Assembly: GCA_028718445.1 (NCBI GenBank)
Contig: JAQULY010000004.1
Span: forward strand, 1-35,079
DNA from: Kiritimatiellia bacterium
GTDB lineage: Bacteria; Verrucomicrobiota; Kiritimatiellia; RFP12; JAAYLN01
Length of the DNA: 35,079 nt
Direction of reading: 5' to 3'
The position numbers were made by a program, and so were the translations under genes. The notes beneath the pieces were generated by a model. It searched no databases and was not told where the DNA came from. It saw nothing but the letters and a program-made list of their open reading frames with translations. Each line of letters starts with the position of its first letter. Position 1 is the stretch's first letter. Shown one piece after another: positions 7,329 through 25,911 of this stretch.

Positions 7329-8197
7329 ATGTTCGTGAATACAAATGGAGCCCGACTGTTTTTCGATGTGGCGGGTAAAGGCGTTATCACCAGAGCCGAC
7401 GGAACAAGCAACCTGAAGCCGCCATGTTTCGCCCTGCACGGTGGTCCGGGCGGAAGTCACTTGGATATCCGGGACTCGCTGGACGGGATCTCCGATTTGG
7501 TTCAACTGGTCTTCCATGACCAGCGGGGCTGCGGCTTTTCCGACAAAATTCCCGTGGAACAACTGTCCATGGCCGCCATGTCCGAGGACATTGAGCGCTC
7601 AGGCTTCATCTTGGGCTGGACGGAGCCGGCATCATTCTCATCGGCTTCTCGTATGGCGGGATGCAGGCGCTGGACTATGTCCTTCGATATCCGGACGCCG
7701 TTTCCATGCTGATTCTCGTTGTGACCGCGCCGAGCGGCGCATTTATCGACGACGCGCGCGAGCGGTTAAGCTCGGTGAAAGATGAGAATCTGAGGAGGCA
7801 TGCCGGAAAAGTACTGTCTGGGTCGTTGAAGGATGAAGATGACATGCGGGAAACGCTTGCCGAGCTGAATCTTCTCTATTCGGCGAAACCGAATGTGAAA
7901 CGCGTCAAGGAGATCGTCAAGAAAGCCGAGGTCAGGCCGAAAATCCTCAACTGGTTTTTTGGAGGCGCCGCAAGGAGTTTCAACACCGTTGAGCGACTCT
8001 CAAGCATCGGAATTCCGACTTTGATCGTCGCGGGGGATCGGGACTGGATATGCCCGCTTTCCCAGGCGAAAATCATGCATGAAGGGATCCCGGGCTCCAA
8101 ATTGGCTGTCTTTCAAGGTGGCCATCATCTTCTGTTTGCGGATGAAAACGAAACGTTCACGAAAGTTGTCAGAGACTTTATCATTGAGCTTACCTAA
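7329..8197 (+). pseudogene. Alpha/beta hydrolase (proline-iminopeptidase-like), interrupted by an apparent 1-nt deletion near 7596-7600
   Basis: ORF 7329-7712 carries HGGPGGSH; ORF 7661-8197 in another frame, read upstream of its ATG, gives LRLHLGLDGAGIILIGFSYGGMQALDYVLRYPDAV with the G-x-S-x-G elbow, then GDRDWICP and GGHHLLF. Confidence 0.8.
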
Positions 8198-8261
8198 GGG
8201 ACGGCGTCGCCGGACTGCGCGGGAATTAGTAGTTGCCATGAATAATGGGCGGGGATCATCA

Positions 8262-9728
8262 ATGCGAACGAGAATCGGAGTCCGCATGTCGGCAATCCTG
8301 GCGGTCTGCGCGCTTCAAGCGCTGGGCGGCGAGATGGGAACGAATGCGGATGTCAGCGTTCGCGATTTCGCGGCTCGGGTAGTGGACGGCGACTGGTCGC
8401 CCGCCGTGCAGGCGGCGTTCGATTATGTCAGCGTCAGCAACGGGTACAACTACGGCGCGACGATTCGCTTCCCCCCCGGTGTCTACCGGATCGACAAGAC
8501 CGTCAAGCTCGGGCTGAACGCCGGCAACTACGGTGTGCGGCTGAGCGGCTACGGCGCCGTGTTGATGGGCAGCAAAACGCTGGATCGTCAGCCGCTGGAT
8601 TATGAGGCGCGCAAAGCGGCTTTCGGGGAAAAGAAAGCCGAGTTTAACCTCCTGGCCTTGCCGGGCGAACTGGACTTCGACGGCACGAATGTCGGTCCGG
8701 CCATCCTGGAACTGTGGAAACCGGAAGGCGGGCCGGAGGGAGCCTCCTATGTTATCGAGGGCGTGACGTTCGACCGCGAGACGGCCGGACGGGGGGTAGG
8801 CATCAAGATACCGGCCGAGACCGTTCCCAAAAACGTTACCTTCCGCGACATCAAGGTTCACAAACAGAACGTCGGCGTGCACATCAACCACAGTTACCAG
8901 ATTCGTTTCGAGAGCTGCATCATCCGAGGCAACCGGATCGGCATCTGGGGGCGCAACCACTTCAACTCGATCAGCATCCTCAACAGCTCGATCCGGCGGC
9001 AGCATCTGCACGGCATTGTCATTGGGCCGAACGCCGGCACCTGGGGCAGCAGCGCCGTCTACATCGCGGGCAGCATCTTCGAGGAAATTAAAGGCTATGG
9101 CATCCTGAATGCCGGCGGCGTGCAGGTGGCGATCGTCAACAATTACTTCGAACAGGTCGGCAATTGCATCGGCGTCTTTTCGCCCTTCGGCAACACCATG
9201 ATTGAATGCAACCACTTCTGGGGGGACGGTTACGGCTACGGCTGGAAGATCAACAAGCATCGCGGCGAGGACGTGCAGGACCGCGGTCACGTGGTGATAG
9301 ATTCGACCGGCGTGCAGCTTCGTAACAACCGCTATGCCGGGATGCCGCCAATCCTGGTGTTCGGACTCGGCGGCAAGAACAGTTTCGACGCCCAGCCGAT
9401 CGTGGCCGCGAAGGCCGCCCTCGCGGACAAGACCATGGCAGCCGATTCGGCCGGTTACGGGGCCTACGTTTACGACGCGAAAACGACGCAGTTCGTGTTC
9501 CGCGCCTGGCAACTGGCGGGGGACCACACCGAGTCGGCGAAGCCGGCGCCAGTAGTGACGAATGCTCCGACTGGCCCGACTTGCACGATTTGCGGACAGG
9601 TTTATGGGGCCGTCAAAGGCGACCCGAAGCGCAAGATCCCGGTGGGCACGGCCTTCGAGGCGCTGCCGGCCGATTGGGTCTGTCCCTCTTGCGGCGCGGC
9701 GAAGAACACGTTTCTTGTTCCGGAGTAG
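8262..9728 (+). CDS. Secreted right-handed beta-helix (pectate-lyase-like) protein with C-terminal rubredoxin domain
   Basis: ORF open from 8079; candidate starts 8238/8262/8286. Signal-like MSAILAVCALQALGG, then VSVRDFAARVVDGDWSPAVQAAFDY...IRFPPGVYRI typical of pectate-lyase superfamily; C-terminus TCTICGQVYGAVKGDPKRKIPVGTAFEALPADWVCPSCGAAKNTF. Confidence 0.8.
   Translation: MRTRIGVRMSAILAVCALQALGGEMGTNADVSVRDFAARVVDGDWSPAVQAAFDYVSVSNGYNYGATIRFPPGVYRIDKTVKLGLNAGNYGVRLSGYGAVLMGSKTLDRQPLDYEARKAAFGEKKAEFNLLALPGELDFDGTNVGPAILELWKPEGGPEGASYVIEGVTFDRETAGRGVGIKIPAETVPKNVTFRDIKVHKQNVGVHINHSYQIRFESCIIRGNRIGIWGRNHFNSISILNSSIRRQHLHGIVIGPNAGTWGSSAVYIAGSIFEEIKGYGILNAGGVQVAIVNNYFEQVGNCIGVFSPFGNTMIECNHFWGDGYGYGWKINKHRGEDVQDRGHVVIDSTGVQLRNNRYAGMPPILVFGLGGKNSFDAQPIVAAKAALADKTMAADSAGYGAYVYDAKTTQFVFRAWQLAGDHTESAKPAPVVTNAPTGPTCTICGQVYGAVKGDPKRKIPVGTAFEALPADWVCPSCGAAKNTFLVPE
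9579..9725 (+). other. Rubredoxin domain (part of CDS 8262-9728)
   Basis: Two CxxC knuckles with the 30-residue Cys-to-Cys spacing of classical rubredoxin, plus GDP, GT.F..LP.DWVCP.CG..K..F. Confidence 0.9.
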
Positions 9729-9911
9729 ATCAGGCCTTGTTGAAGGCCAGGTGCCCGAGCGCAACCACATTTGGGAACATGTGAACGTACAATGGGGACA
9801 TGTAGGCGCAGCACGGAAGCGCGGCGCCGACAGCTTCATACGATCCCAGGGCCGCGACTGTAAGGTGCACCGTCCCATAGGTCCGGCGCTACCGTTCCGG
9901 TCCATCGTCAA

Positions 9912-9940
9912 GTAGGGCGGGACCTACGGGACCGCCCCCC
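9912..9940. repeat. Weak GTAG-type intergenic hairpin (GGGCGG...CCGCCC)
   Basis: gtagggcgggacctacgggaccgcccc; 6-bp stem 9915-9920/9932-9937; similar start to the 6263 and 6293 hairpins. Confidence 0.35.
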
Positions 9941-10178
9941 GTCGGCGGCGCGACTTTGATGCAGACAGCGGCGCCGGCCGGTGGACGTCCACGGCGACCA
10001 GAACGGCTGACGAGTGAGTGACCGGACAATCGTGCACCGTTCGCGTCGGCGCTCTCGTGCCGCTGTGAGCATGGCCGCGATTCGTCTTTGATGGTCACGT
10101 TCCTGCTCGAACCGCGAAAGGTCTGTCCGCAACACTGGTCTTCGTCGCACGCTTCGTCGCACCATTTGTCGGTTACGG

Positions 10179-10270: not shown

Positions 10271-11273
10271 AGGTGCGACGATCTGGTACGACGGCGCGTT
10301 GTTGACGGTGGAAGGTAAAGGTTGGCAGGCAACCGAGTCCTTTTACGATCGCCTGCCGGCCAAGGCCAAGGGCATGGTGCCTGATGGTGTGTGGGGTTTG
10401 AGCCGGGCGTCGGCCGGAATCTGCATTCGGTTTGCGACGGACGCATCATCCTTGCAGGTACGCTGGAGTCTGACGGAAAGCGAACTGAGCATGCACCACA
10501 TGCCGGCCACGGGCAAGAGCGGCGTGGACTTGTACGGCAGGGATCCGGCAGGCAACTGGACCTTTCTGGGCAATGGCCGTGCGCTTCAGATGTCCAACAC
10601 CGCCAGCTTCGAGACCAGGTCGGCAAGCGAGTGCCTGCTATATCTGCCTTTGTACAACGGCGTCACCGCCGTGGCCATCGGAATTTCCAAGGACAATCGG
10701 CTGGCGCCGCCGCCGGCGTCGGTCCGCGATCGGCGCAAACCCATCGTCTTCTACGGCACCTCGATCACGCAGGGCGGGTGCGCATCACGCCCCGGATTGG
10801 CCTACACGGCCATTGTCGGGAGGAAACTCGATGTGCCGGTGATCAATCTGGGCTTTTCGGGAAGCGCGCGGATGGAGCCGGAACTCGCGGACTTGCTGGC
10901 CGAACTCGATCCGTCCGTCTATGTCATAGACAGCCTCTGGAACATGTCCCCGGCCCAGGTGGCGGAACGCATCGAGCCCTGTGTGCGGAAACTGCGCCGA
11001 GCACATCCCGAGACCCCGATTCTCTTGGCCGAGGACTCGAACGTCTGGGGCACGACGCCGACCGAAAAGGGGCGCGTGTTGCGGTCCGTCCACGAGAAAT
11101 TGACCTCGGAGGGCATCAAACGACTCGCGTTCCTATCGAACGAGGAGATGTTGGAAACCGATGGCGAGGGGACCGTGGACGGTTGTCACCCGAACGATCT
11201 GGGCATGATGAGGCATGCCGCCGCCTTTGTGAAGGCTCTGAGCGGCTTCAAGGCGGAACTGGGATTGCGGTAG
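10251..11273 (+). CDS. SGNH/GDSL-family hydrolase (esterase-like)
   Basis: Block I FYGTSITQGG, NLGFSGSARMEPE, C-terminal DGCHPNDLGM (D-x-x-H). Confidence 0.8.
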   Translation: MTASEDTGATIWYDGALLTVEGKGWQATESFYDRLPAKAKGMVPDGVWGLSRASAGICIRFATDASSLQVRWSLTESELSMHHMPATGKSGVDLYGRDPAGNWTFLGNGRALQMSNTASFETRSASECLLYLPLYNGVTAVAIGISKDNRLAPPPASVRDRRKPIVFYGTSITQGGCASRPGLAYTAIVGRKLDVPVINLGFSGSARMEPELADLLAELDPSVYVIDSLWNMSPAQVAERIEPCVRKLRRAHPETPILLAEDSNVWGTTPTEKGRVLRSVHEKLTSEGIKRLAFLSNEEMLETDGEGTVDGCHPNDLGMMRHAAAFVKALSGFKAELGLR

Positions 11274-14200
11274 CAGTTCTGGCAATGCTTGCGCCCATGA
11301 TGCCGAAGATGACTGCGTTGGCAACGGCCTCGATCGCGACGGACGTCAGTTCGACGCCGGGACGCAGGGCGAAGGGAATCAGCTTGGCCTCCGTGTCTAC
11401 CGTCACCCACTTGTGCTTGTCCGCCACATCCAAAGATCCGGCCGGCCCCACGCGGCCGCCAATGTTCTCGAACCCGCACCGCTCCAGCGGTTTACGCGGG
11501 ATGTAGCGAACGTCCCGATGGAATGTGTGGGTCGCGCCTAAGTCGTCGAAGTACTTGCACCAGCAGTCGCCGATGTCGAACGGCGGCACAAGATCCACGG
11601 CAGTCGCATGTCCGTCCTCATAACGCAGATGGACCCGCACGTTCGGTATGTGGCTCTGTGTGGGGAACGTAACACCGCTGAGCATCAGATACAGCGTTCG
11701 GCCCGGGGCGCGCACGGGGAATTCCAGCCGCACGGGGAATCCGCCCATTAACGTCACGACACCGATGTTCGCGCCTCCCCCAACCGTGCGGAAGGGAATC
11801 CCGTCGGTTGTCCACGCGACGTCGTCGCTCCCGACTTTCGCGCGCCACGCCGCGTCGCTCGGTTTGTCACGAGCCGGCGTGTACGCCCAGAAATCCTTGA
11901 GGTGCGTCTGCCAGTAATCGAAGCCGATGTCGCTGGCCGGCGGCCGGGGCCAGTGGGCCACGGAGGCCTCAACAACACGGTCGCACGCATCCATCACGGT
12001 GGCGTTGAAGACCGACCGTAAGTCAACTGTTGTCCACAAATCCAGGCGCCGCGCCGACACCTCCGGCGGCGCCCACCGTCGGACCGGTGGCGGCGTGGCC
12101 GGCTCGATGCGCACACGCAGGGGCCGCCAGGCCGGGCACGCCTTGTTCGCCGATTCCAGGAACAGTAGACCGGGACCCGCTGCGCCGTCCACGATCGCAC
12201 GTAACCGTCCGTCGGAGGTGCGGCGCGCGTCTCTGAGCAGACCCTGCGGATCGACACAGTCGCACGCTCCATACTTCGTCAGAGGCAACTCACACGCCGC
12301 CCCTTCCTTCAGATTCACTTCCGGCAGCGTCGCCAGGCGGGACGGTCGGTAGGTAACAGCGAGCCGTCCCCGGTGCGCCGGCTTCATGGTCGTACTCAGC
12401 CAACTGCCGCCGCTGCGCGCTTCGAGGTCGTACGCCAGCGTCCTGCCGTTGCCGCGTACGGATGTGACGGCTCTGGCGCAGACCGGCAGACGGAACCGCA
12501 CGGCCGTCTTCACCGGCGAGGTCCAGGCGATCTCGATCCGGCCCGGTTTCCCGCGCCACTCGTACCCGACGTGCGGCGTCCGGATAGACGCACGGCGCCA
12601 CGTCGCGGGAAACTGCGGGCACAGCGTCACCTCGCCATCCTGCCGCCGCGGCCGGATGCCGAACAGTCCTTCCGTCACCGCCCGCGTCCACATGCCGACC
12701 ACATCGCCGAACCCTGAGTTCGTGCCAGGGGAGTCCGTGCCCACACACCCCGCGTGCGGCCCCTCGAACATGAGCATCGTCACAGCCAGTAACACCTCGT
12801 AGGCGTCCGCCGCCTGGCCGCCCAGATAATTGGTCAACGCGTAGTTCAGATTGTCGGCGGTGTTCGGCTGGAAGTGACTGTAGGGCGGGTGCCAGTTCGA
12901 TGGCCACCAGAGCCGTCCACCGTTCCGGGCCGACACCTGCTGCAGGTGCATCTCGACCCAGTGCAGCATCTGTGAGATCTGCAGCGGGGCCGCCGCCCCG
13001 AATTCGGCCGCATGGTTGACCGCCGGCAGAGCGGGCTCCGGGTGCACCCAGGGGTGATTCCACGTGTCGACGAACTCGGCAAACACGCCCACGCGCGTCT
13101 GCCACAACTTACGCTGCATGGCGGCCCGAATCCGCCGTGCCCGCTCGCGAAACGGCTCCGGGTCTTCTCCGATGCGCGCGGCCACATCGGCCAGCAGATG
13201 GTGCGCCTGCAGGAGATAGGCGGACGTGTGAGTCGCTTGGCCGCCCATGTAGAAGTGCTGGTCGCTCACGCAGACGTCGAGGGCGCTTTCGTAAAGGTCC
13301 TCGTTTCCCGGCTGCAACCGCCGGTTGTGCCACTCCACGATGCTGACAAGCACCGGATAGATTTCCCGCATGAGTTCCCGATCGTCCGTATGGTCGAAGT
13401 AATGGCGCACGTGGTCCAGGAAGACCGGATTCATGTTGTAACAGACGGCGCGGTCGCGTCCGAAGATCCGGTGATCGAAGAGTGATCCGAGAGCGCCGTG
13501 GTCTGGATCGGTCGCGTTTCGCACCAAGCCCAGACGGATGTGGTTACGGATCGCCGTGCGCACGCGGTCAGTCCACCCCAGGCAGGTGGGCGCGTACCAC
13601 ACACGCCAGCCGAGATAGGGCTGGCGCCAGGTCCAGTTGCCGTGCGCGAAGGCAATATCACCCCACAACCCTTCGGTCGCAAACGCCTGCATGGTGTTGG
13701 CCGCGTCCAGCCAGGGATCGGGCGTGCACGTGACCAACCGCGCCGCGATCGTGCGGTTGCGCTTGAGCGCGGCGCGGAACGCCCGACCCGGATCGCGTAT
13801 CGCGTTCAGGATGTCGCCGCCCATGCCGACCACCACGTGCCCGATGGACCGCCCGCGCTTGAGCGGAATACGTTGCACGACCACCCGGTTGCCGCAAAAG
13901 GACGTGTCGCCCGACGAACACCACTCCGTTGCCGCCAACAAACGGTCCGGCGATGCCAGGAACGCCGACGGCTCAGCGAGCCCTGCCCGCGCCCACGATG
14001 GTCCCGCCCCTTGCACCGTGGTCTGCCACGACGGCAACACGCGGGTCACAGCGTCATATTGCCGGGTGAAAGAATCGCCCTCGTCAAACGCCCGCACCAA
14101 CTGGAACCGGCCGTGCTTCCACCGCACGCGGTCCTTGGCGCACCGTTCAGGCGCGAAGTCGAGTTCCGCCGCGTCGAGCTTGTTGGCACACGCCGCCGAG

Positions 14201-14766
14201 GCGCCACCGTAGCTCCAGACCAGGGCGGCCGGCTTGGTCAGCCCGCGCACCGCGTAGTGCACGATCAAGCCCACGGCGCCGGAGAGCGCCAACGCGGCGA
14301 CGTCGACGGTGACACCCGGAAAGGCTGCGTCACGCAGCCGGTACTCCATGCGACCCTCTATGTAGGACACGTCCACGCGGTCCCAGTCCTGGAGCCACTT
14401 GCCCGGTCCGTTCTCCACGGCCATCCCGAGGACCAGATGTCCCTGCAACCCGCCAGCCGTATGGGCATCCAGCAGAAAGCGCGGCACGTTCCACGCTGTG
14501 ACTACCGGACGGAAGGCGAACGCGCCCACGTGCGGCCCTGGCGTGGGCGGCTGGGGCGGACCGTGGTAGCCGACGACCTCGGCGGGCAGTGCCACGCAAT
14601 CCAGCTTCTTCCGTTGCGCCTTGGTAAAGAGCAGAGCGCGATCGGCGGGCGGAAACAGCGGACGGCAGTGCCGGCGCGCGCCTTCTCCGTCCCCCACGAT
14701 ACGCTGGCGCCAACCGCCGGTAACAGGTCCATAGCCTTCGTTTTTCGAAATCGTCACGGTTTGCAC
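11248..14766 (-). CDS. Large cytosolic-looking glycoside-hydrolase-like protein with central (alpha/alpha)6 toroid, possibly DUF4450-like
   Basis: 1172-aa ORF, 9 bp downstream of the preceding gene; toroid-type region (SLFDHRIFGRDRAVCYNMNPVFLDHVRHYFDHTDDRELMREIYPVLVSIVEWHNRRL...), bacterial GH-like C-terminus; no obvious signal peptide. Confidence 0.65.
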   Translation of the reverse strand: MQTVTISKNEGYGPVTGGWRQRIVGDGEGARRHCRPLFPPADRALLFTKAQRKKLDCVALPAEVVGYHGPPQPPTPGPHVGAFAFRPVVTAWNVPRFLLDAHTAGGLQGHLVLGMAVENGPGKWLQDWDRVDVSYIEGRMEYRLRDAAFPGVTVDVAALALSGAVGLIVHYAVRGLTKPAALVWSYGGASAACANKLDAAELDFAPERCAKDRVRWKHGRFQLVRAFDEGDSFTRQYDAVTRVLPSWQTTVQGAGPSWARAGLAEPSAFLASPDRLLAATEWCSSGDTSFCGNRVVVQRIPLKRGRSIGHVVVGMGGDILNAIRDPGRAFRAALKRNRTIAARLVTCTPDPWLDAANTMQAFATEGLWGDIAFAHGNWTWRQPYLGWRVWYAPTCLGWTDRVRTAIRNHIRLGLVRNATDPDHGALGSLFDHRIFGRDRAVCYNMNPVFLDHVRHYFDHTDDRELMREIYPVLVSIVEWHNRRLQPGNEDLYESALDVCVSDQHFYMGGQATHTSAYLLQAHHLLADVAARIGEDPEPFRERARRIRAAMQRKLWQTRVGVFAEFVDTWNHPWVHPEPALPAVNHAAEFGAAAPLQISQMLHWVEMHLQQVSARNGGRLWWPSNWHPPYSHFQPNTADNLNYALTNYLGGQAADAYEVLLAVTMLMFEGPHAGCVGTDSPGTNSGFGDVVGMWTRAVTEGLFGIRPRRQDGEVTLCPQFPATWRRASIRTPHVGYEWRGKPGRIEIAWTSPVKTAVRFRLPVCARAVTSVRGNGRTLAYDLEARSGGSWLSTTMKPAHRGRLAVTYRPSRLATLPEVNLKEGAACELPLTKYGACDCVDPQGLLRDARRTSDGRLRAIVDGAAGPGLLFLESANKACPAWRPLRVRIEPATPPPVRRWAPPEVSARRLDLWTTVDLRSVFNATVMDACDRVVEASVAHWPRPPASDIGFDYWQTHLKDFWAYTPARDKPSDAAWRAKVGSDDVAWTTDGIPFRTVGGGANIGVVTLMGGFPVRLEFPVRAPGRTLYLMLSGVTFPTQSHIPNVRVHLRYEDGHATAVDLVPPFDIGDCWCKYFDDLGATHTFHRDVRYIPRKPLERCGFENIGGRVGPAGSLDVADKHKWVTVDTEAKLIPFALRPGVELTSVAIEAVANAVIFGIMGASIARTATAIPVPP

Positions 14767-14775
14767 CCCAGTCGA

Positions 14776-17700
14776 TCACCGAGCCACGATTACACGGAAA
14801 TTGCGGGCGGAGACGGCAAAGCGGGCACAGCCGTCGGCAAGAGGAACCGTGGTCTGGGCTGGTGGAACGGCCTGTTCGGCGTACGCATCCACGAGCGCTG
14901 CCGGCGCCGGCATTCCCAGCGCACTCCAATTTGGGGTCAACTCGACCTCGCTGTCGGCGTCGGAATTGTTCATTGTCACGAACAAGGCCTTGCCATTCCG
15001 GGTAAAGACGGAGGTGACGACCGGGGATTGCGTGGTCTTGGTTTGCACGAGCGAGTTGTTCTCCCAGTACCCATGGAAAACCGTATTCGAATCCCAGCCG
15101 AATGCCATTTGCACCCGGTACGCTTGCAGGACGGGGTCGCCGTTAATGCAGTCCCGCGTGCAGGGAATGTCGCTCACCCATAGCATACCCAGCAGGTGTT
15201 CGACGGCGGGAATCCCCTCAGGCCCCAGCACGCGTCGCTTTTTCTCGGCATCGCCCGCGACCGCGCGGGCAAGCTCCGGCAGGAACATCATAGGAATGCC
15301 ATAATTGCGGCCCATATATTCGGCGCGCAGGGCCTCCAGGCTCAGCACGCGATAGTAATTGAGATCGGCGACGAGGTTGGCATTGAGGGTCAGATTCTCG
15401 CCGGTCAACATCAGATCGGCGAAGGCGAGTTGCGACATGATGGGCGCGCCGGACTGATGATTGTAGAACTTCAGGCGGGGCCACCGCGCTTTGACCGACA
15501 GATACGCGCGCCGCTGAAAGTCCCGTGTTCCCAATAAGGAAAATATCCCGTCCTTGCCCCACACGGCCTGAGCGCAATCCAGATAGTAACCGCTGATCTT
15601 GTCCGGCAACATTGGATTGTCCGCGAACAGCTTGTTGCAGCGCCATACCATGTAGTCGCGCATGTCCGGATTCGTGCGCCACCTCCGCACGGATGTGTAG
15701 GCCGCGGCGTTGTCCTGATACTCGCCCCATCCCGCGAAAGTCTTCAAGACGTCGTCGCCGCACCAGATCGCCGAGGTGTTCCAGTAAAGATACGGGAAGA
15801 GATTCCTGGCATTCAGCCGGGCGCACAGCGCGTACGTGTTCGAGTTCGCCACCAGGTAGCCATAGGGGCCGTCCTTCTGGTTGGTTTCGATGTTCCATTG
15901 CGAATAGGTCTGAGCGGATCGTTCGTTGTCGGGCAATTTGCTCAGATCCCACGTGCAACCCCGGATCGCCTCCAGCGCCCAGGCGCGCCAATCCGTCGGA
16001 ATCGGTTTTACCGGCGTTGCCTGTAAGCCGAACGCATAACGGCGCGGCGCGCCGTCCAGCCGGGTCGGCTGGTCAACAAGTGTGAATCGGAGCACCGTTT
16101 CCTTCTCGCCTGGTTCGACAGCCAGCATCCGGGTCTTGTCTAGCAGGTTCCAATCTGTGTAATCCTGCGTCGACCACTGCAAACCGCCTTTATCGTTGCC
16201 CAGCCAGACGACGGGATCGATGGCCAGCAGGCTATTGAACTTGCTGACGGCGCCGGACGGGTGGATGTAGCCGGCGTTGACCAGAGGTGCGGCGGCGCGG
16301 TCAAAGGGAATTTCCAGTATCAGATGATCCAGCGTATGGGTGGACGACTTCCCGCCTAACGCGATCTCCTGCCACAGGAAACCGTCGTATTCGAGGTAGC
16401 CCTTGACCGTGAGCGGAACGACGCCGAGTTTCCCCTTGAACGTGAAATCGGCGCGTAGATCGGTCACCTTGTTCCACTTGAAGGCGGGCTTGCGAATGGA
16501 CACCGGCTGGCCGTCGATCTTTGCGCTCAACGTGATTGGGCGCGATAGCAGTTCCTGTCCCTGGCTTTTGATCTGCGTCGGGAAAGCGCCGGCATCCCAA
16601 GCGTACTCCCGACCCCAGCAGGTCAACGTCGTATCGTTACACCGCACCGGTTCCCAAGGCGCCGGGACCGACTGAACCTCGCCGATGCGATTACCGAGCC
16701 ATTCCGGCATGTCGGCGACCCGCAGGGAGGTGTCGCTGGTTGCGATCACGCGACCCGTCCGCACGAGTTGGACATGGACCGCATAGGCTCCAGCATTCAA
16801 CGACGGAGAGTCCAAAAGAATGCGTTGATGCAGATTCGTCGCCGCGGCAACGCCCGCCAGCCGAACTTTCGCCGTACGTGGATCCTGGATCACATATTGA
16901 TACCAAGCGTCCCGCAACTCGTTGGTCGCCCAGCCAACCGTTTCGGTCATGAGCTCCACCCGTCCCTGCCGTAATTCATAGTTCGCCAGCGCGCTGAAAT
17001 AGGGCGCTTCATCCTGGCGCGGCGATAAGAGGCCCGCCAACCCCTTTTCGTAGATGGCCCTGGCCTCCGCCGGTTTGACCGGACGATCCAGAATGAGCAC
17101 CTCGTCAATCGCCGTGTCCGGCACGCCGTTATCCCGCAGATTCTTCCCGCCGATAATGAAATCCTTGGCCGGATGTCCGATCAGATGAGGCGTTGGCACA
17201 TAGTTGGCGCCGACAAACTGCCCATTCACATACATCGCCATCTGGTTGCCGGACCAGGTTGCGATCAGGTGGCCCCACTGGCCATCGGGCAACTCAAGCG
17301 ACACCTTGCCGCCGGCATCCCCGGACGCCGGCATCACTGTGTAAAATTCTCGATGATAGGTGTCCTGCTGCACGAGCCAGAGGGCCGGGTAAATGAAGGA
17401 TTTGTACAGCCAGACGAAGTCGCCACTATCGCCCGGCCCCGAGGGGACTACGTCGTGGAGGCGAAAGTAGAAGCGCATATAGGTGTCGGTCTTATCCCAG
17501 CCGACGGGTTTGATCCACATCGCCACTGAGCCGGCGTTGATGTCGAGGTTGCCGGCTGTGGCGTATCGCAGTTCGCTTCCCGGACCTCCAACAAGCACGG
17601 CCTTCCCCGCGCGTCCCTCCACAAACGTGGCCGTCGTGGTCGCCGTCAGCGCTTTGCTCCCTTGCGCAATGCGGCCGTCGGTGGTCCCATCGAAAGGCGC

Positions 17701-17868
17701 ATAGAAGAGAACATGCGTGGCCGTGATTCCCCATGCGGCGCTTGTCCACAGACTTGCGACCAGCAGCAGGCACCCGAGCATGCTTTTCGAAAGTCCCCTT
17801 TGCGCCACGGGTTTGCCATCCGTCGTCGAGCGTTGGCACGGGTTGCGTTTATGCTGATATCGGCTCAT
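14776..17868 (-). CDS. Secreted LamG-domain + DUF6067/GH123-like protein
   Basis: Signal SMLGCLLLVASLWTSAAWG; LamG-like FYAPFDGTTDGRIAQGSKALT...IDEVLILDRPVKPAEARAIYEKG; then VVWLGNDKGGLQWSTQDYTDW and FGLQATPVKPIPTDWR typical of GH123-like/DUF6067 proteins. Confidence 0.7.
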   Translation of the reverse strand: MSRYQHKRNPCQRSTTDGKPVAQRGLSKSMLGCLLLVASLWTSAAWGITATHVLFYAPFDGTTDGRIAQGSKALTATTTATFVEGRAGKAVLVGGPGSELRYATAGNLDINAGSVAMWIKPVGWDKTDTYMRFYFRLHDVVPSGPGDSGDFVWLYKSFIYPALWLVQQDTYHREFYTVMPASGDAGGKVSLELPDGQWGHLIATWSGNQMAMYVNGQFVGANYVPTPHLIGHPAKDFIIGGKNLRDNGVPDTAIDEVLILDRPVKPAEARAIYEKGLAGLLSPRQDEAPYFSALANYELRQGRVELMTETVGWATNELRDAWYQYVIQDPRTAKVRLAGVAAATNLHQRILLDSPSLNAGAYAVHVQLVRTGRVIATSDTSLRVADMPEWLGNRIGEVQSVPAPWEPVRCNDTTLTCWGREYAWDAGAFPTQIKSQGQELLSRPITLSAKIDGQPVSIRKPAFKWNKVTDLRADFTFKGKLGVVPLTVKGYLEYDGFLWQEIALGGKSSTHTLDHLILEIPFDRAAAPLVNAGYIHPSGAVSKFNSLLAIDPVVWLGNDKGGLQWSTQDYTDWNLLDKTRMLAVEPGEKETVLRFTLVDQPTRLDGAPRRYAFGLQATPVKPIPTDWRAWALEAIRGCTWDLSKLPDNERSAQTYSQWNIETNQKDGPYGYLVANSNTYALCARLNARNLFPYLYWNTSAIWCGDDVLKTFAGWGEYQDNAAAYTSVRRWRTNPDMRDYMVWRCNKLFADNPMLPDKISGYYLDCAQAVWGKDGIFSLLGTRDFQRRAYLSVKARWPRLKFYNHQSGAPIMSQLAFADLMLTGENLTLNANLVADLNYYRVLSLEALRAEYMGRNYGIPMMFLPELARAVAGDAEKKRRVLGPEGIPAVEHLLGMLWVSDIPCTRDCINGDPVLQAYRVQMAFGWDSNTVFHGYWENNSLVQTKTTQSPVVTSVFTRNGKALFVTMNNSDADSEVELTPNWSALGMPAPAALVDAYAEQAVPPAQTTVPLADGCARFAVSARNFRVIVAR

Positions 17869-17903
17869 CGGACACCCTTGACCTTCAGGTTGCCATCACC
17901 TTT

Positions 17904-19805
17904 TCAACGAAGAACAATAACTGTGCCCGCGGGCAGTATCTGCTCGGTCGTTACGCCAAACAGAGTCCAAGGAGTCCCGGACACATACGACATCTTGATG
18001 GCCAGTGACGTATTGAAGGCGGTAAAATCGTACTGAAGATAGTGCGCGGTTGCGCCGGCGTCAGCGTTGAGAGTCACGGTGCAGCCTGAATCCCCGTCAA
18101 AGAAGCTGATCGTGCCGTCGCGCGTGCCGTCATCGGTCCACGGCCTGTAGTAGAGGCGCGTGCTGTATTTCGTGTCCGGCGTCAATCCTCGCAGCAACAA
18201 CGTTGACGGTCCGTGGTTGTAGTACATGATGTTATTCAGCATCGCGCTGATGTTGCCGTCGGCATGCGTATTGCCGTTGCCGCCATTCGTGTAGAACGTG
18301 GCCGTTCCTGAACTCGTGTAGTATCGATACCCGGTCCCTGAAGGCGAATTCACCTTCGTAAAAGTGACGCCATTGATGAGCAGCGTCCCGGTCGTATCGC
18401 CAAAATCCAAGGCATGCGCGTAGACCTTGTGCGGGTTCAAGCCGACTGAGACGTCGGCATTGACCGCCGGAATATCCACAATCGAGAGCGCGGCCGGCTG
18501 TCCCGCGTAGATTTCCTCCGTGGTAACGCCGCAAAAGTGCCAAACGAGAGTGGACGCTTGCGCGACCACCGAAATCGTGACGGCATTTCCGGTTGCGGTG
18601 AATCGGTACTCCAAGAAGTGGGCGCCGGCGTCGGCCGACTGATTCACGGCGATGACTGTATTGGAGCCGTCGCCATTGAAGGTGAATGTCGAGGTGCGCT
18701 CGGCGGTGTCCCAACGCCGGTAGTAAATGCGCGTGCTGTATCGCTTGCCTGGCGTCAGTCCCGTAAGCGCGAGCACGGCCGGTGTCGTGGTGGAGGACGT
18801 ATTGTTGAAGAACATGCCCGTCAGCATGTTGCTCACGTTCCCGTCCGTGTACGTTGTCGAGTTGCCGGGATGAGCGTTGAATGTACCCGGACCCGTGAAT
18901 GAATATCCCGTGCCCGAAGCTGCGTTCACCCTGGTAAACGTCACGCCATTGATGTTCAGCGTTCCGGTGGCGTCGCCGAAGTCCAGCGCGTGCGTGTAGC
19001 TCTTGACCGGACTCAGGCCCGCCGAGGAGTCGGAATCGACCGGCGGAAGATCCACAATCGCAACCGTGGCCGGGGGAATATCGAGCGCTTCCTCCGTGGT
19101 GACGCCGAAAAAGAGCCAAACGTAGTTCGGCACGTGAGCGACGGCGGAGATCGTCACCTCACTTCCGCTGGCGGTGAACTTGTACGCCAGATAATGCGCG
19201 GCTGCATCGGCGCATTCATCCACATCGATAGTGGCGTCGGCGCCGTCGCCGTTGAAGGTGAACGTCGAAACACGGGGGTTGGCGTCCCACCGCCGATAGT
19301 AGATGCGCGTGCTGTATGGCTTGCCGGGAGTCAGCCCCGTCAGCGTGAGCACGGCCGGTGTCGTGGTGGACGGCGTATTGTTAAAGAACATGCCCGTCAG
19401 CATGTTGCTCACGTTTCCGTCCGTGTACGTCGTCGAGCTGCCGGCATGAGCGTTGAATGATCCCGGTCCCGTGAAGGAATACCCCGTGCCCGAAGCCGCG
19501 TTCACCCTGGTAAACGTCACGCCATTGATGTTCAGCGTTCCGGTGGCGTCGCCGAAATCCAACGCGTGCGTGTAGGTCTTGAAGGAGGTCAGACCGGATG
19601 CGGCATCCGACCCTGTCGCCGGGATATTCCCTACCGAGACGGTTCCGGCTGTGGCGGCACCGCTCAACGCGAATGCGACCATGAGAACGGCGACGTCTCG
19701 GCGACGCCTGGAATGCCGATCATGGTTCAAGCGGAGACCTCCCGCGTTTGAGAAGTCGTTGTTGCGCTGGTCCAGCTCGTTGTCAACCTCGCTCCGGTTG
19801 CTCAT
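17904..19805 (-). CDS. Secreted surface protein with three ~192-aa tandem repeats and C-terminal GTVIVLR
   Basis: Start at MSNRSE with SD gaggag; repeats ALDFGDATGTLNINGVTFTRVN...TGLTPGK.YSTRIYYRRWD...FFGVTTEE; ends QILPAGTVIVLR. Confidence 0.8.
   Translation of the reverse strand: MSNRSEVDNELDQRNNDFSNAGGLRLNHDRHSRRRRDVAVLMVAFALSGAATAGTVSVGNIPATGSDAASGLTSFKTYTHALDFGDATGTLNINGVTFTRVNAASGTGYSFTGPGSFNAHAGSSTTYTDGNVSNMLTGMFFNNTPSTTTPAVLTLTGLTPGKPYSTRIYYRRWDANPRVSTFTFNGDGADATIDVDECADAAAHYLAYKFTASGSEVTISAVAHVPNYVWLFFGVTTEEALDIPPATVAIVDLPPVDSDSSAGLSPVKSYTHALDFGDATGTLNINGVTFTRVNAASGTGYSFTGPGTFNAHPGNSTTYTDGNVSNMLTGMFFNNTSSTTTPAVLALTGLTPGKRYSTRIYYRRWDTAERTSTFTFNGDGSNTVIAVNQSADAGAHFLEYRFTATGNAVTISVVAQASTLVWHFCGVTTEEIYAGQPAALSIVDIPAVNADVSVGLNPHKVYAHALDFGDTTGTLLINGVTFTKVNSPSGTGYRYYTSSGTATFYTNGGNGNTHADGNISAMLNNIMYYNHGPSTLLLRGLTPDTKYSTRLYYRPWTDDGTRDGTISFFDGDSGCTVTLNADAGATAHYLQYDFTAFNTSLAIKMSYVSGTPWTLFGVTTEQILPAGTVIVLR
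18364..19600 (-). repeat. ~576-bp coding tandem repeat, three copies; two copies highly similar at DNA level
   Basis: ttcaccctggtaaacgtcacgccattgatgttcagcgttccggtggcgtcgcc occurs at about 18925 and 19501, spacing 576 bp; a more diverged copy lies near 18364. Confidence 0.8.
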
Positions 19806-19869
19806 AGTTCGCTCCTCTCGTTTTCCCTTGTCCTCGACCCACCCGTTGTACGGCAGGCAATATGCATCC

Positions 19870-21018
19870 TCATACCACACTCGTTTCCACCGCCACGCCC
19901 GGTGGCGCCGGCACCCCCGGTGCTCCGTCGTGAAGCACCAGGGGGCAGGTCAGCACGGCGCTGGCGATTTCCCGGCTCCGCGACTGAATCCGCTCCAGCA
20001 ACATCTCCGTCGCCAGTTCGCCGACGCGGACAAAGTCCGGCCGCGTGGACGGCAACGGCTCCGTCAGCACGGCGTTCTGGAGATCGTCGAAACCCGCCAC
20101 TGCGATCTGCTCCGGCACGCGGACCCCGCGCGAACGCAGGTACGCCACGCTGAGTTGCGCGTAGCGATCATGAAAGACAATCAAGGCGTCCGGTGGCAAC
20201 GGCTGCGCCAGCATACGGTCCAGGGCCGACCGGCAGCTCAAGTCGCCTTGCCGTCCTTCCAGTAGGCGCATCCGCTCGATCTGCGGGGCCAGGCCGGCTT
20301 CTTCCATGGCCTGACGATAGCCGATCACACGGTCATCCACGGAGCGGTGCAGAAGCTCATCCTCAGTCTTGAGGAACACAATCCTCGGGCGTTGGCGGGC
20401 CAGCAGGTGGCGAGTCATCTCCCGTCCGGCCGAGACGTTGTCCACGACTACGTGCGGACGCTGCATGGTGGGTTGGTAGAGGTCGGTCACCACAATCGGG
20501 TAGTCGTGTAATTCCGTGCACAGATACTCGGTCGCGTCCCGGCGTCGCGGGCCGGGGTACAGCACGACGCCCTGAACGCCACGGTCGCGCATGGCTTCCA
20601 GATGCGCTCGCTCCTTCGCCATGTCCCAGTGGGTGCTCGCCACTTCGACTACGCAACCGACGCGGTTCGCCGCCTGTTCGACGCCCTCGAAGACCCGATG
20701 GCAGATCGTGTGCGCCAGACTGTGAACCACGAAACCGATTCGGCCCTGCGACCGCCTGCGGCGCGGCCGCGGCGTGTTGGAGAGCGCCGCAACATAAATG
20801 CCGCTGCCCTGGCGCTTGGTCACCCATCCGTCGGCGGCCAGCAACGACACAGCGCGCACGACAGTGTTACAGCTGACCTGATATCGCTGCGCCAGTTTCA
20901 TGACTACCGGCAACTTGGCGCCAACCGCCGTCGGTCGACGGACCCAGAAGTCGTCGAACATACGCTCACAGAGCAGCTGATAGGGCGCCTTGGCGCCAGA
21001 TAAAGTATTTGAGTGCAT
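19870..21018 (-). CDS. GntR-type winged-helix + LacI-type periplasmic-binding-fold transcriptional regulator
   Basis: LAQRYQVSCNTVVRAVSLLAADGWVTKRQGSGIYV HTH; RIGFVVHSLAH...GVQGVVLYP...VAGFDDLQNA sensor domain. ORF open to 21063 but a promoter occupies 21035-21063, so ATG at 21018 is preferred. Confidence 0.85.
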   Translation of the reverse strand: MHSNTLSGAKAPYQLLCERMFDDFWVRRPTAVGAKLPVVMKLAQRYQVSCNTVVRAVSLLAADGWVTKRQGSGIYVAALSNTPRPRRRRSQGRIGFVVHSLAHTICHRVFEGVEQAANRVGCVVEVASTHWDMAKERAHLEAMRDRGVQGVVLYPGPRRRDATEYLCTELHDYPIVVTDLYQPTMQRPHVVVDNVSAGREMTRHLLARQRPRIVFLKTEDELLHRSVDDRVIGYRQAMEEAGLAPQIERMRLLEGRQGDLSCRSALDRMLAQPLPPDALIVFHDRYAQLSVAYLRSRGVRVPEQIAVAGFDDLQNAVLTEPLPSTRPDFVRVGELATEMLLERIQSRSREIASAVLTCPLVLHDGAPGVPAPPGVAVETSVV

Positions 21019-21033
21019 TTGAAGTATTTGAGT
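21003..21033. promoter_or_regulatory. 12-bp direct repeat aagtatttgagt at 21003-21014 and 21022-21033
   Basis: Exact 12-nt repeat, start-to-start 19 bp, flanking the predicted ATG of the minus-strand regulator. Confidence 0.6.
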
Positions 21034-21034
21034 T

Positions 21035-21063
21035 ACTATAGCAGGGAGTTGCCTCCCTGTCAA
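21035..21063 (-). promoter_or_regulatory. Sigma70-like promoter TTGACA-N17-TATAGT
   Basis: Minus strand: TTGACA 21063-21058, 17-nt spacer, TATAGT 21040-21035. Confidence 0.75.
21042..21059. promoter_or_regulatory. Inverted repeat CAGGGAG-ttgc-CTCCCTG within promoter spacer (candidate operator)
   Basis: Perfect 7-bp arms between the -35 and -10 hexamers, overlapping the last two bases of the -35. Confidence 0.6.
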
Positions 21064-21071
21064 GTGCCCAA

Positions 21072-21119
21072 CCTAGAAAGAACAGTTCGGGCGCTCTTCG
21101 CGTGCCCGAACTGTTCTTG
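21072..21119. repeat. Intergenic hairpin AAGAACAGTTCGGGC-N11-GCCCGAACTGTTCTT
   Basis: Perfect 15-bp inverted repeat 21078-21092/21104-21118; head cctagaaagaacagttc shared with element at 34497. Confidence 0.85.
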
Positions 21120-21283
21120 TGTTTGGCTGCCGCCCACCTACGGGGTGAGATGCAGCAACGTCTGATGCCCCTGCACGACCGGACGCAGTGGCTTTTCTCC
21201 AATCTGATGCCAGCGCTTCCCGAAAGCGTCGCGTATACGCAACCGCCCGCAACCGCCTGTCCTGCAGGTTCCAGTTCCGGCCC

Positions 21284-21312
21284 TTGACAACTCGATTATA
21301 ATGTATTATTCT
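21284..21312 (+). promoter_or_regulatory. Candidate promoter TTGACA-N17-TATTCT
   Basis: TTGACA 21284-21289, TATTCT 21307-21312, just upstream of the 365-aa regulator. Confidence 0.5.
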
Positions 21313-21336
21313 GCTTTCCGTACGAAGCAGAATAAT
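21305..21336. promoter_or_regulatory. Palindrome ATTATTCTGCTT-N8-AAGCAGAATAAT overlapping promoter and start codon (candidate operator)
   Basis: Perfect 12-bp arms; second arm runs into the ATG at 21335. Confidence 0.75.
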
Positions 21337-22432
21337 GACTCTTGAACTGAAAATCGAGACAGCGGAACCGGTTCATCGGCAGATCGAGCTCTTTCTTCGG
21401 CAGAAGCTGGCGAAGGGAGAGTTGCCGCCCGGGACACGCCTGCCGCCGACGGGGGAGCTGGCTCGCCTGTGGCGGGTGGATCGCAGCGCGATTCAGCGGG
21501 CGGTCGCCCCTCTGGTCGCACAGGGCTACATCGAGCGCCGGCCCCGTCGCGGCACCTTCGTCAGCCACGGCGCGCACAACGCGCACATCGCCTTGCTTTT
21601 CGGACCGTCCCTGGCGGATGAGTCGGCCCATTTCTACCGCGCCGTAAAGAAGGCTATGTGCGAGGAGGCGCGCGACTACAAGTGGGTCTGTCGGGTGTAC
21701 GATGGCATCAATCCGACAACGGCGGCCGATGGAACCGGCAAAGAGGAGATGCTGGACCATCTGAAGCGAGACATTCAGAACTACGGTTTCAAAGGATTGG
21801 CTTACGTTGGCCTGCGGACGGACCTGGTTCCCATGTTGGAACGCGAGTGCAGACTGCCGATCGTCGGGGACAACGAGGCCGGGCACTACGACATCAAGCG
21901 TTTTGTTGAGGACAGCGTGGCATGCCTGGCCCAGCACGGGTGCCGGAGGCTGGTTTTCATTCCTGGCATCAGGATGACAGACCAACCTTCGTGGACGCCC
22001 ACGTCGGTTGTGCTGCAAGACGAAGCCGGTGCGCTTGGGTTGCCGCCAATCGAGGCGGTTACCTTTCCGGCCCTCGCAAGCGTGACGGGAAACGAAGCTG
22101 AAATTCAGCGCCAAATGATGAGGCGGATCGGGGATTGGCGGGCGCGTTCGGACGGAATGCCGGACGGCGCGATTGTGGTCGACGATATCATGATGCGGGC
22201 CGTGGCCCTGGCGCTGCTGGCCACGGGCGTGAAAGTCCCGGAGGATCTCAGGGTTGTTACTCTCGCCACGGATGGGGTGCGTCTGCACTATGGCGTGCCC
22301 GTAACGCGGTACGAATTCCATGTTGGCGATCGCGTGAAGGCGCAGATCAGGCTGTTGTGGAAGCGAATCCTGAACGACTCCCTTCCTCCCGAACCTCTGA
22401 TGTGGCCGGGACATCTTCTGGAGAGTGAATGA
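21335..22432 (+). CDS. GntR-type winged-helix + LacI-type sensor transcriptional regulator
   Basis: PVHRQIELFLRQKLAKGELPPGTRLPPTGELARLWRVDRSAIQRAVAPLVAQGYIERRPRRGTFV; periplasmic-binding-like C-terminus. Confidence 0.85.
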   Translation: MTLELKIETAEPVHRQIELFLRQKLAKGELPPGTRLPPTGELARLWRVDRSAIQRAVAPLVAQGYIERRPRRGTFVSHGAHNAHIALLFGPSLADESAHFYRAVKKAMCEEARDYKWVCRVYDGINPTTAADGTGKEEMLDHLKRDIQNYGFKGLAYVGLRTDLVPMLERECRLPIVGDNEAGHYDIKRFVEDSVACLAQHGCRRLVFIPGIRMTDQPSWTPTSVVLQDEAGALGLPPIEAVTFPALASVTGNEAEIQRQMMRRIGDWRARSDGMPDGAIVVDDIMMRAVALALLATGVKVPEDLRVVTLATDGVRLHYGVPVTRYEFHVGDRVKAQIRLLWKRILNDSLPPEPLMWPGHLLESE

Positions 22433-22513
22433 CGGGTATTGGCGTGAAGAGCACTTCCATGGATGTTCGTTGGCCGGACAATGAATCCACCAAACAGGAG
22501 AAGGAGGCAGCAT

Positions 22514-23980
22514 ATGAAAACGCCAACCGTTCCCCGAAGGTTGTTCGCCCTTGCTGGGCAGGACGGCGTGTCGCGCCGGCTCGGTCTGGCGGCCGTGGCG
22601 GCATGGGCGTTGGCAGGTCCGACTCGGGCCGCCGAACGGACATTCACAGCCAACAACGCCGACTTCCACACGCCGGCCAATTGGAGTGACAGCGCCGTGC
22701 CCGGCGTGGGAGACACCGGCATCATTGCCGGGGTCGAAGGAACCACACGGACAGCCCGGTTCCGCTCCAATCTGCCTGCCACGCCGGATGCCATCCGGAT
22801 ACAACCCTACGGTGTGCTGCAGCTCTATGACGCCCATATGGCCAACGAACACAATCTCGTTGTGGAGGGCGGTCGCTTCAGCACCAGGTACAACTACAAT
22901 TCGTTCAGCACGGTTTCGTTGTGTTCGACTTCTTATTTTTCGTCTGCGTCCGGTTACACCCTAGGTCTCTACGGGGTCGTTAAGGATGCCGTCGGAAGCA
23001 AAGGGACGATGATCGTTGATGCCGGGAATGTCGCGGTGGGTGGTACCAGCGTCACGAATGCCTACAGCGGCGGCACGCAGATCGGGAGTGGTGCGAAACT
23101 CAATGTCTACAAGGGAGCTAACGGATCCAGCGTGCTGGGCTCGGGGCCGATCGAGCTGTTGCCGGGCGGGACACTTTCCTTTGGCTACAACGGGGACGTC
23201 TTCATCACCAACGAGATCGTGATCAGCGGCGCCAGACTACAAGGCGCGAATAACGACCTTTACGGTCCGAATATACGAGTCAATGGCTATGCGGACTTGA
23301 ATACCGACAAAGCGATGGCGGAGTGTGACGCCGTCTTCCGGGATTACGATGCGACACACCCCGGTCGTTTGATCAAAACGGGAAGCGGCACATGGCGGGT
23401 GAAGTCCGTGAGCAGCACCTACAGCGGCGGCACGCGTGTCCAGAGCGGAACGCTGGTGTTGGCGTCCTCCGCTACCGGGAGCATGCCCGACACGGGCATG
23501 ATTCAGACGGACACCGGCGCCACCATGGACTTCAACGGCCAAAGCGACACCATCGGAGGCCTATCCGGCGACGGAACGAATTCTCTGGGCAGCGGCGCCG
23601 CGATCGTCATATGCGCAGAGGGTGTTGCGCCGGGAACCAACGGGACGAACGCGGCCACGCTGACGCTGACCGGTTCCGGACGACTGACCCTGGGGGCCGC
23701 GGCCGAAAGCGTCTTTCGCGTGCGCTCGACGTCGGATCATGACCAGGTGCGGTTCACCGACGCCGCCAATCTCACGCTGGATGGCGAAGTCCGGATCGAG
23801 ACGCTGGGCGCCAGACCGGAAGCCGGCGAGTACGTGCTTTTCGATCTGGCGAGCGGTGCAGCCGACGGCGCATTCCTCGGGATCACGACGCCGAACGGAT
23901 GGAACGGCAGCGTTATCATACGAGATGGCGACGTCATTCTGCGCTTGTTGCCGAACGGCACGGTAATCATGTTGCGCTAA
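22514..23980 (+). CDS. Secreted autotransporter-associated beta-strand (PATR-like) surface protein, C-terminal GTVIMLR
   Basis: SD aaggagg before ATG 22514; signal LAAVAAWALAGPTRAA; STYSGGTRVQSGTLVLASSATGSMPDTGMIQ; ends RLLPNGTVIMLR. Confidence 0.8.
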   Translation: MKTPTVPRRLFALAGQDGVSRRLGLAAVAAWALAGPTRAAERTFTANNADFHTPANWSDSAVPGVGDTGIIAGVEGTTRTARFRSNLPATPDAIRIQPYGVLQLYDAHMANEHNLVVEGGRFSTRYNYNSFSTVSLCSTSYFSSASGYTLGLYGVVKDAVGSKGTMIVDAGNVAVGGTSVTNAYSGGTQIGSGAKLNVYKGANGSSVLGSGPIELLPGGTLSFGYNGDVFITNEIVISGARLQGANNDLYGPNIRVNGYADLNTDKAMAECDAVFRDYDATHPGRLIKTGSGTWRVKSVSSTYSGGTRVQSGTLVLASSATGSMPDTGMIQTDTGATMDFNGQSDTIGGLSGDGTNSLGSGAAIVICAEGVAPGTNGTNAATLTLTGSGRLTLGAAAESVFRVRSTSDHDQVRFTDAANLTLDGEVRIETLGARPEAGEYVLFDLASGAADGAFLGITTPNGWNGSVIIRDGDVILRLLPNGTVIMLR

Positions 23981-24057
23981 TTGGAGACAACCGCTTGGGG
24001 CGAAGCCCCTGCAGTGGGATTCTGGCCTGACCACAAGACGACCTAAGGGAGACGTCC

Positions 24058-25911
24058 ATGTCCCTGGAAATATCGAAAGACCCGAACGCCCGCGCGACAA
24101 TGTGCCGGCACTTTCCCTACGAATTAGTTTGGCGGCCTGAAAGGCGATATGTCGCCGGCGCGCAGATCGAATTGCGCAGCCACAAATTGAGGGCTTTCCT
24201 GGAGTGGAAATACGTCGGGATGGAAATCGAGGGTGCTGACATCACTTTTCGCTGGCGAACATGGCAAACGCCGGGCGAATTACGCCTGAATCCGAACCGC
24301 GTGCTCTGTCGGGCCAAACTGCACTATGGCATACCGCAAGGCCGGCCGCTTCGGATTCGCCTGACCGCCATTCCTCCAATGTGGTCCGGCGTCGACAACG
24401 TCATTTCCATCTGGACGATTGACGTGAACACGGATCCGGACCCCAATGCCCCGCAATTGGACGCTGTAAAAGAATCTGGGAGCGAGTGTTTGCTGAGGGT
24501 GAAAGCCGCCGCGGTCGAACGGCTGTCGATCTATTCCAGGCCGATGGCCGGTGCGGACGGCAAGGTCCGCACTCTGCTGGTGCCTGAAGACCGCTTCGGC
24601 AACCCTTCCTCTTTCACAAGACCAGTAAATGCAACACTGACCTGGATGAATAGACGTTGGTCCCAATCCCTTGAGAGCACAACGGTTGTCAGTTTGCCCG
24701 AACCCGCCGATATCGGCCGTTTGCAGGTAACAATTCCCGTCGAACAACTGAGCAGGGAGGACAATGTGACCAATGGCAATCGTGTTGGCGACAACATTGT
24801 CCTTCGCGGCAATCCCGTTTGGCGAAATGGACCTGACGGTTTACGACCGGCCTTTGGCGAATTTCATTGGCATACCGATTTTTCCGGCGATGGCCAGCGA
24901 TCCATTCATGAAGCCCTTCGCTGCGCACGGGATGAACTGAATATGGACTTTGCGGCGCCGAGCGACCATAACACGCGGGGCCAAAACTGGAACGACACGG
25001 TAACGGCAGTGGAGACGTTCGCAAAAGAGGGCGAGTTTGCCACGTTCTTCGGCTGGGAAAATTCCAGCGACCGCGGCCATGAGAATTACTACTTCACCGA
25101 TCCCGGCCATGCCCTGATTTGCGGTGGTGCGGCGGGGATTGTTGGCGCTCGCGTTGAGGATTGTGAGGGAAAGTTGAAAGCGCTCTATCAGACGCATGAC
25201 TTTCTGGTCATACCGCATCACACGAATACCGAGGCGGAAACGCGCCGCATCAAGGACGATGCTCCAGTGTGGCATCCCTATCCATGGCACGCCCCCGTCG
25301 AACATGTCCGCATGGCGGAAATCATGCAGATTCGCGGCAATCAGGAGCAGAACCTTTACGATGACGTGTGGCGCGGGTGGCATCAGAACAATCAGGCTTC
25401 CCTGCAGGACGCACTGGCCCGCGGCTACAAGGTCGGATTCACAGGCGGAACCGACAACCATTGCGGCTGGCCGGGACGGGCCTATGCAATCCAGGAAGGC
25501 ACGGGCACTCTTAACCCGAAAAGCGTGATTCTGACCGGATTGTGGACCGAGCAGATCGAGCGTCATTCAATTTATGACAGTCTGAAAGCGCGCCGAAGCT
25601 GGGCGGTGTGGGACACGCGGGCTTTGGTCGTTTTCAGGATCAATGGCGCAATCTCCGGTAGCGAAATAGCGGTAGGTCGCACAACGCAAATCGCGGCATA
25701 TCTGAAAGTGAGCGCGGAAGATTCTCTGCAGGTCGTTGAAATTGTATCGGATGGCAACGTTGTCTGGTCTGCCCAATCCGTTTCCTTGGATATGGAGACA
25801 ACCATAGAGTTGCCGCCCGCGGAGAAGAACACCTATTTCTATCTGCGGGCGTTGCAGCGCGATGGCGGAATCATATATGCCAGTCCGGTGTTTGTGAATG
25901 TGACCACTTAG
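24058..25911 (+). CDS. PHP-domain/DUF3604-like metal-dependent hydrolase-type protein
   Basis: SD gggaga; FGEFHWHTDFSGDGQRSIHEALRCARDELNMDFAAPSDHN, FLVIPHHTNTEA, GFTGGTDNHCGWPG. No evident signal peptide. Confidence 0.7.
   Translation: MSLEISKDPNARATMCRHFPYELVWRPERRYVAGAQIELRSHKLRAFLEWKYVGMEIEGADITFRWRTWQTPGELRLNPNRVLCRAKLHYGIPQGRPLRIRLTAIPPMWSGVDNVISIWTIDVNTDPDPNAPQLDAVKESGSECLLRVKAAAVERLSIYSRPMAGADGKVRTLLVPEDRFGNPSSFTRPVNATLTWMNRRWSQSLESTTVVSLPEPADIGRLQVTIPVEQLSREDNVTNGNRVGDNIVLRGNPVWRNGPDGLRPAFGEFHWHTDFSGDGQRSIHEALRCARDELNMDFAAPSDHNTRGQNWNDTVTAVETFAKEGEFATFFGWENSSDRGHENYYFTDPGHALICGGAAGIVGARVEDCEGKLKALYQTHDFLVIPHHTNTEAETRRIKDDAPVWHPYPWHAPVEHVRMAEIMQIRGNQEQNLYDDVWRGWHQNNQASLQDALARGYKVGFTGGTDNHCGWPGRAYAIQEGTGTLNPKSVILTGLWTEQIERHSIYDSLKARRSWAVWDTRALVVFRINGAISGSEIAVGRTTQIAAYLKVSAEDSLQVVEIVSDGNVVWSAQSVSLDMETTIELPPAEKNTYFYLRALQRDGGIIYASPVFVNVTT

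Follow-up and report, generated by a model that had tools for sequence, protein, structure and literature searches.

Rubredoxins are usually regarded as cytosolic electron carriers, and those which are naturally fused to another domain donate electrons to it, as is established for rubrerythrin and flavorubredoxin. These two proteins, like the metallo-β-lactamase/rubredoxin and flavin-reductase-like/rubredoxin fusions, are cytosolic redox enzymes in which a C-terminal rubredoxin is carried on a larger partner. Pectate-lyase-like β-helix proteins (Pfam PF13229 and PF12708; for example RbmB, AlgE4 and DFA-IIIase) are found in a secreted setting, and none of the three named has a rubredoxin. A non-carrier precedent is the mycobacterial protein PknG (kinase + rubredoxin + TPR), whose rubredoxin is a regulatory metal knuckle that limits entry to the active site of the kinase; the metal-binding domain modulates activity and a response to oxidation has been reported (PMC6069109). 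The literature searched gave no report of an exported rubredoxin or of a rubredoxin on a β-helix. This paper describes a probable combination of this kind in the window, that is, the whole stretch of 35,079 nucleotides from a Kiritimatiellia bacterium that was analysed, and discusses what the rubredoxin may do there.

A signal-like N-terminus, a β-helix and a rubredoxin follow one another in a single plus-strand frame with no stop codon between them (Table 1). The original prediction of an in-frame fusion of a rubredoxin to a pectate-lyase-like β-helix thus looks genuine: the rubredoxin peptide lies in the frame of the β-helix, its four cysteines have the classical CX2C-X29-CX2C spacing, and Pfam recognizes both Rubredoxin (PF00301, E=2.9e-17, 62.9 bits, cut-off 23) and Beta_helix (PF13229, 35.4 bits, cut-off 25.9). 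The Pfam matches and the cysteine spacing are far beyond what chance could explain. The first ATG of the open frame (8079) overlaps the upstream gene, and an alternative ATG at 8238 would give a protein of 496 amino acids; ATG 8262 is the most plausible start and is preferred over ATG 8079.

Table 1. Features of the fusion gene and its 3' neighbour (window coordinates).
Feature	Position	Strand	Basis
β-Helix/rubredoxin fusion CDS	8262..9728	+	488 aa; open frame, GGGCGGGGA-like sequence 5' of ATG 8262
Signal-peptide-like N-terminus	8262..8327	+	About 22 residues, Sec-type, without twin Arg; hydropathy and charge
Right-handed parallel β-helix	8349..9524	+	PF13229 35.4 bits; 61-64% identity to five homologues; AF2; Foldseek
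Ala/Pro/Thr-rich linker, DHTESAKPAPVVTNAPTGP region	9525..9578	+	Homology to relatives stops here; low pLDDT at residues 383-436 of 488
Rubredoxin domain	9579..9725	+	PF00301 62.9 bits, profile 3-47 of 47; Cys codons 9582, 9591, 9681, 9690
Convergent ATPase-like gene remnant, last 12 codons	9736..9771	-	Just 3' of the fusion stop; 94% match to C69

The rubredoxin resembles the classical protein in its full-length domain and cysteine spacing; its best PDB match is the Desulfovibrio vulgaris rubredoxin (1rdv, E=2e-12), and it is about 47-64% identical to the rubredoxins with which it was compared. Unlike the classical protein, it ends a probably exported polypeptide, it is not strongly acidic, and it scores 60.1 bits against the NCBIfam rubredoxin equivalog NF045768, below the cut-off of 90. 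When set beside 91 domains from the order and phylum samples, taken from among the best matches listed, it has the highest net charge of the 92 (+2; the other 91 have a mean of -5.9 and a maximum of +1). In addition, several conserved residues are replaced: the near-universal core Tyr4 by Pro (the residue two before the first Cys is Tyr, Trp or Phe in 90 of the 91 related domains), the Asp-Pro after the first knuckle (Asp in 74/75 and Pro in 75/75 relatives) by Gly-Ala, and Tyr11 by Gln. All four cysteines, Gly10, Tyr13, Phe30, Trp37 and Phe49 are kept. In a rubredoxin tree, built on 44 columns from which the donor of the domain is not placeable, its end branch is by far the longest (0.81 versus a median of 0.062).

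Among the matches listed from the order and phylum samples, rubredoxins are either standalone or fused to other domains, which sequence motifs suggest to be metallo-β-lactamase and flavin-reductase-like domains. Many long open frames around the relatives' rubredoxins were rejected as fusions, being chance frames in GC-rich DNA. Several metallo-β-lactamase/rubredoxin fusions in the same phylum have, like the window domain, a near-neutral rubredoxin (0 or +1) and lack Tyr11; the loss of acidity may therefore be, at least in part, a general mark of fused rubredoxins and not special to the domain described here. A metallo-β-lactamase-like/rubredoxin fusion with a short-loop rubredoxin is conserved across the order (L064, L067, L068, L070, L071, L079 and L083). 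Within the same genome, the one other rubredoxin passing the PF00301 search is a standalone 58-amino-acid frame on contig C10, which speaks against a repeated use of rubredoxin here as a sorting tag, an idea that was therefore dropped.

At the other end of the protein, the N-terminus MRTRIGVRMSAILAVCALQALGG was judged from charge and hydropathy: the n-region carries +3 and the h-region has a Kyte-Doolittle value of 2.5, in agreement with the signal-like character claimed for it earlier. Signal-like N-termini are also present in all five β-helix relatives, and the fusion protein is probably exported. As for the β-helix itself, the window protein stays below the cut-off of PF12708 (Pect-lyase_RHGA_epim; 20.2, cut-off 27), which its relatives pass (30.6-35.9). 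An AF2 model from the single sequence was uninformative (pLDDT 38.5), and the model based on an alignment of homologues was used instead; this has a mean pLDDT of 69.9, with β-helix strands, a low-confidence stretch in the linker region and a compact C-terminal rubredoxin domain of about 80 pLDDT. The top Foldseek matches are the RbmB polysaccharide lyase, the AlgE4 epimerase, DFA-IIIase and other carbohydrate-active β-helices. Since their TM-scores are below or near 0.5, and at most about 0.5, no specific enzyme family can be assigned to the β-helix.

A contig scan with the whole fusion protein as query gave no relatives, and a later scan with helix-core peptides gave five (L145-L149) in planctomycete and verrucomicrobial MAGs. 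They share 61-64% identity with the window protein across the helix, and nearly 200 columns are invariant among the six. Their C-termini differ: L145, L147 and L149 end in a TPR-type extension, L148 stops without a tail where the linker of the window protein starts, and L146 runs off its contig, by which its C-terminus is cut off. A rubredoxin tail is found in none of the five (with the C-terminus of L146 cut off as stated). The original prediction had proposed a search for the same fusion in relatives and had counted its general absence against it. The fusion is indeed absent from every relative found; this is read as a rare module exchange and not as proof of an artefact, because the β-helix family has swapped its C-termini at exactly this boundary. 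The rubredoxin fusion is thus a singleton, for which C-terminal module exchange is the best reading.

Wider searches point to a rare β-helix family. Apart from the gene of the window itself, a β-helix query of 388 genomes of the phylum and 145 relatives from the order gave nothing but weak, incomplete matches, and a β-helix profile gave no further full-length members in 193 genomes of the class, 343 genomes of the phylum of L148, 120 genomes of the family of L147 or 116 genomes of the order of L149. No β-helix relatives were found in the viral contigs, phages and plasmids searched, where plasmid matches to the fusion protein concerned the rubredoxin part only. The six members, from Planctomycetota and Verrucomicrobiota, are patchily distributed and have interchangeable C-termini; the patchiness suggests horizontal transfer. 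Genes flanking the homologues encode a sulfatase, an SGNH/GDSL esterase, a ceramidase-like protein and DUF1501 proteins.

Around the fusion gene itself lie carbohydrate genes (GH123, GH2-like and Bac_rhamnosid6H-like), with an SGNH esterase adjoining. From these surroundings and those of the homologues one may reasonably infer that the protein has to do with polysaccharides. The stretch 11248-25911 has the look of a locus for polysaccharide use: two GntR-type regulators with periplasmic-binding-protein domains stand there near the GH123 and Bac_rhamnosid6H-like genes and a gene for a PATR-repeat protein. Dispersed intergenic repeats occupy 9778-9987, as pieces of about 30-120 bases that are 81-97% identical and recur at over 30 sites across the genome. 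An α/β-hydrolase gene at 7329-8197, proline-iminopeptidase-like, is broken across two frames around 7610-7660 and is either a pseudogene or the product of a sequencing indel.

Another reading of the tail is that of an exported redox module, an iron rubredoxin which would exchange electrons with a partner at the surface or in the periplasm and might be tied to polysaccharide chemistry of the β-helix. The exact cysteine spacing, the full-length profile match and the presence of metallo-β-lactamase and flavin-reductase-like fusions in relatives agree with such a function. Nevertheless we think it unlikely, as the window ORFs scanned showed no recognizable family of reductases, cytochromes or flavoproteins, the acidic docking surface has been lost, and the helices of the relatives work without a rubredoxin; moreover, the β-helix is not known to carry a redox cofactor. 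The earlier suggestion of electron delivery to a surface redox partner is disfavoured by the same missing partner family and by the loss of the acidic surface together with several conserved residues. A further form of it, an extracytoplasmic rubredoxin enzyme in which a redox-active domain tethered to a polysaccharide-active β-helix would deliver or accept electrons outside the cytoplasm, is very improbable.

The tail might also be a vestige, or a neutral gain of a domain on which constraint has been relaxed. This would be consistent with the very long branch, the loss of several conserved residues, the singleton state of the fusion and the decayed ATPase-like gene directly downstream; the counterpart of that remnant on contig C69 of this genome forms the 3' end of a complete 432-amino-acid frame, the rest of which is missing from the window. 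The four ligands and the aromatic core (Tyr13, Phe30, Trp37 and Phe49) are nonetheless intact, the frame is open and the coding signal is retained, and we regard this explanation as quite unlikely.

The fusion could also be an artefact: there may be two genes, one for the β-helix and one for a rubredoxin with GTG 9555 as its start, which sequencing or assembly has run together through a small indel in the linker of 54 nt. Similarity to the other β-helices stops at the linker, another frame holds TAG TGA at 9553-9558 just 5' of the rubredoxin, and GTG 9555 is in the rubredoxin frame, so that in principle one indel there would be enough to fuse them. Per-codon log-likelihoods, based on codon statistics trained on neighbouring genes, are highest for the frame of the protein itself both in the β-helix (0.389) and in the rubredoxin (0.284), but the linker is too short for discrimination (0.168 versus 0.166 and 0.221 in two other frames). 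In addition, the split α/β-hydrolase gene indicates that indels occur nearby, and the assembly is a MAG of 725 contigs with 5.6% contamination. On the other side, the β-helix and the rubredoxin already share one frame, no Shine-Dalgarno-like sequence precedes GTG 9555, and the domain has a Pro/Thr linker before it in place of the Met and aromatic start of related rubredoxins. Furthermore, it is strongly diverged, unlike a fresh copy of a standard rubredoxin, no second copy of its DNA was found in the genome, and no adjoining rubredoxin gene stands beside those relatives whose flanks were checked. An artefact is accordingly judged highly improbable.

The reading that we prefer, with about an even chance of being correct, is that of an exported β-helix protein which gained its rubredoxin by module exchange and in which the rubredoxin is a metal-stabilized accessory or attachment tail, not an electron carrier. 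The protein would be a Sec-exported, periplasmic or surface member of the rare planctomycete/verrucomicrobial family and probably acts on or binds polysaccharide; the acquired rubredoxin would take the place of the TPR tail or the plain end of the relatives, hang on a flexible linker, fold about a single Fe or Zn ion bound by the four cysteines, and most likely serve as a compact accessory or attachment domain. An accessory module is favoured over a carrier because the helix family exists without rubredoxin and no redox partner was recognized among the scanned window ORFs. Some points weigh against this reading. The retained cysteines, Trp37, Phe30, Phe49 and Gly10 make iron binding and redox activity possible, the near-neutral charge of the metallo-β-lactamase/rubredoxin fusions may deprive the surface change of special meaning, and the fusion, being a singleton, has no orthologue on which selection could be tested.

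The closest likeness for such a non-carrier role is PknG, in which, as in the β-helix family, TPR is also a module, although PknG is a cytosolic kinase with an unrelated catalytic domain. By analogy with it, the exported rubredoxin might instead sense or scavenge metal, or act as a redox-labile switch, loading Fe or Zn in the extracytoplasmic space or unfolding on oxidation and so gating the cleft of the β-helix. In the model, the long low-confidence linker disfavours a fixed gating position, and this alternative seems very doubtful.

Returning to the accessory tail, both of its parts are known, and their combination looks like a one-off so far, with no second case among the matches listed from about 1,000 sampled genomes. 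If real, the fusion would mean that, beyond the cytoplasm, a rubredoxin has been put to new use as a metal-stabilized building block. It would also reveal a rare, highly conserved β-helix family which spans Planctomycetota and Verrucomicrobiota and whose C-terminal modules are interchangeable.
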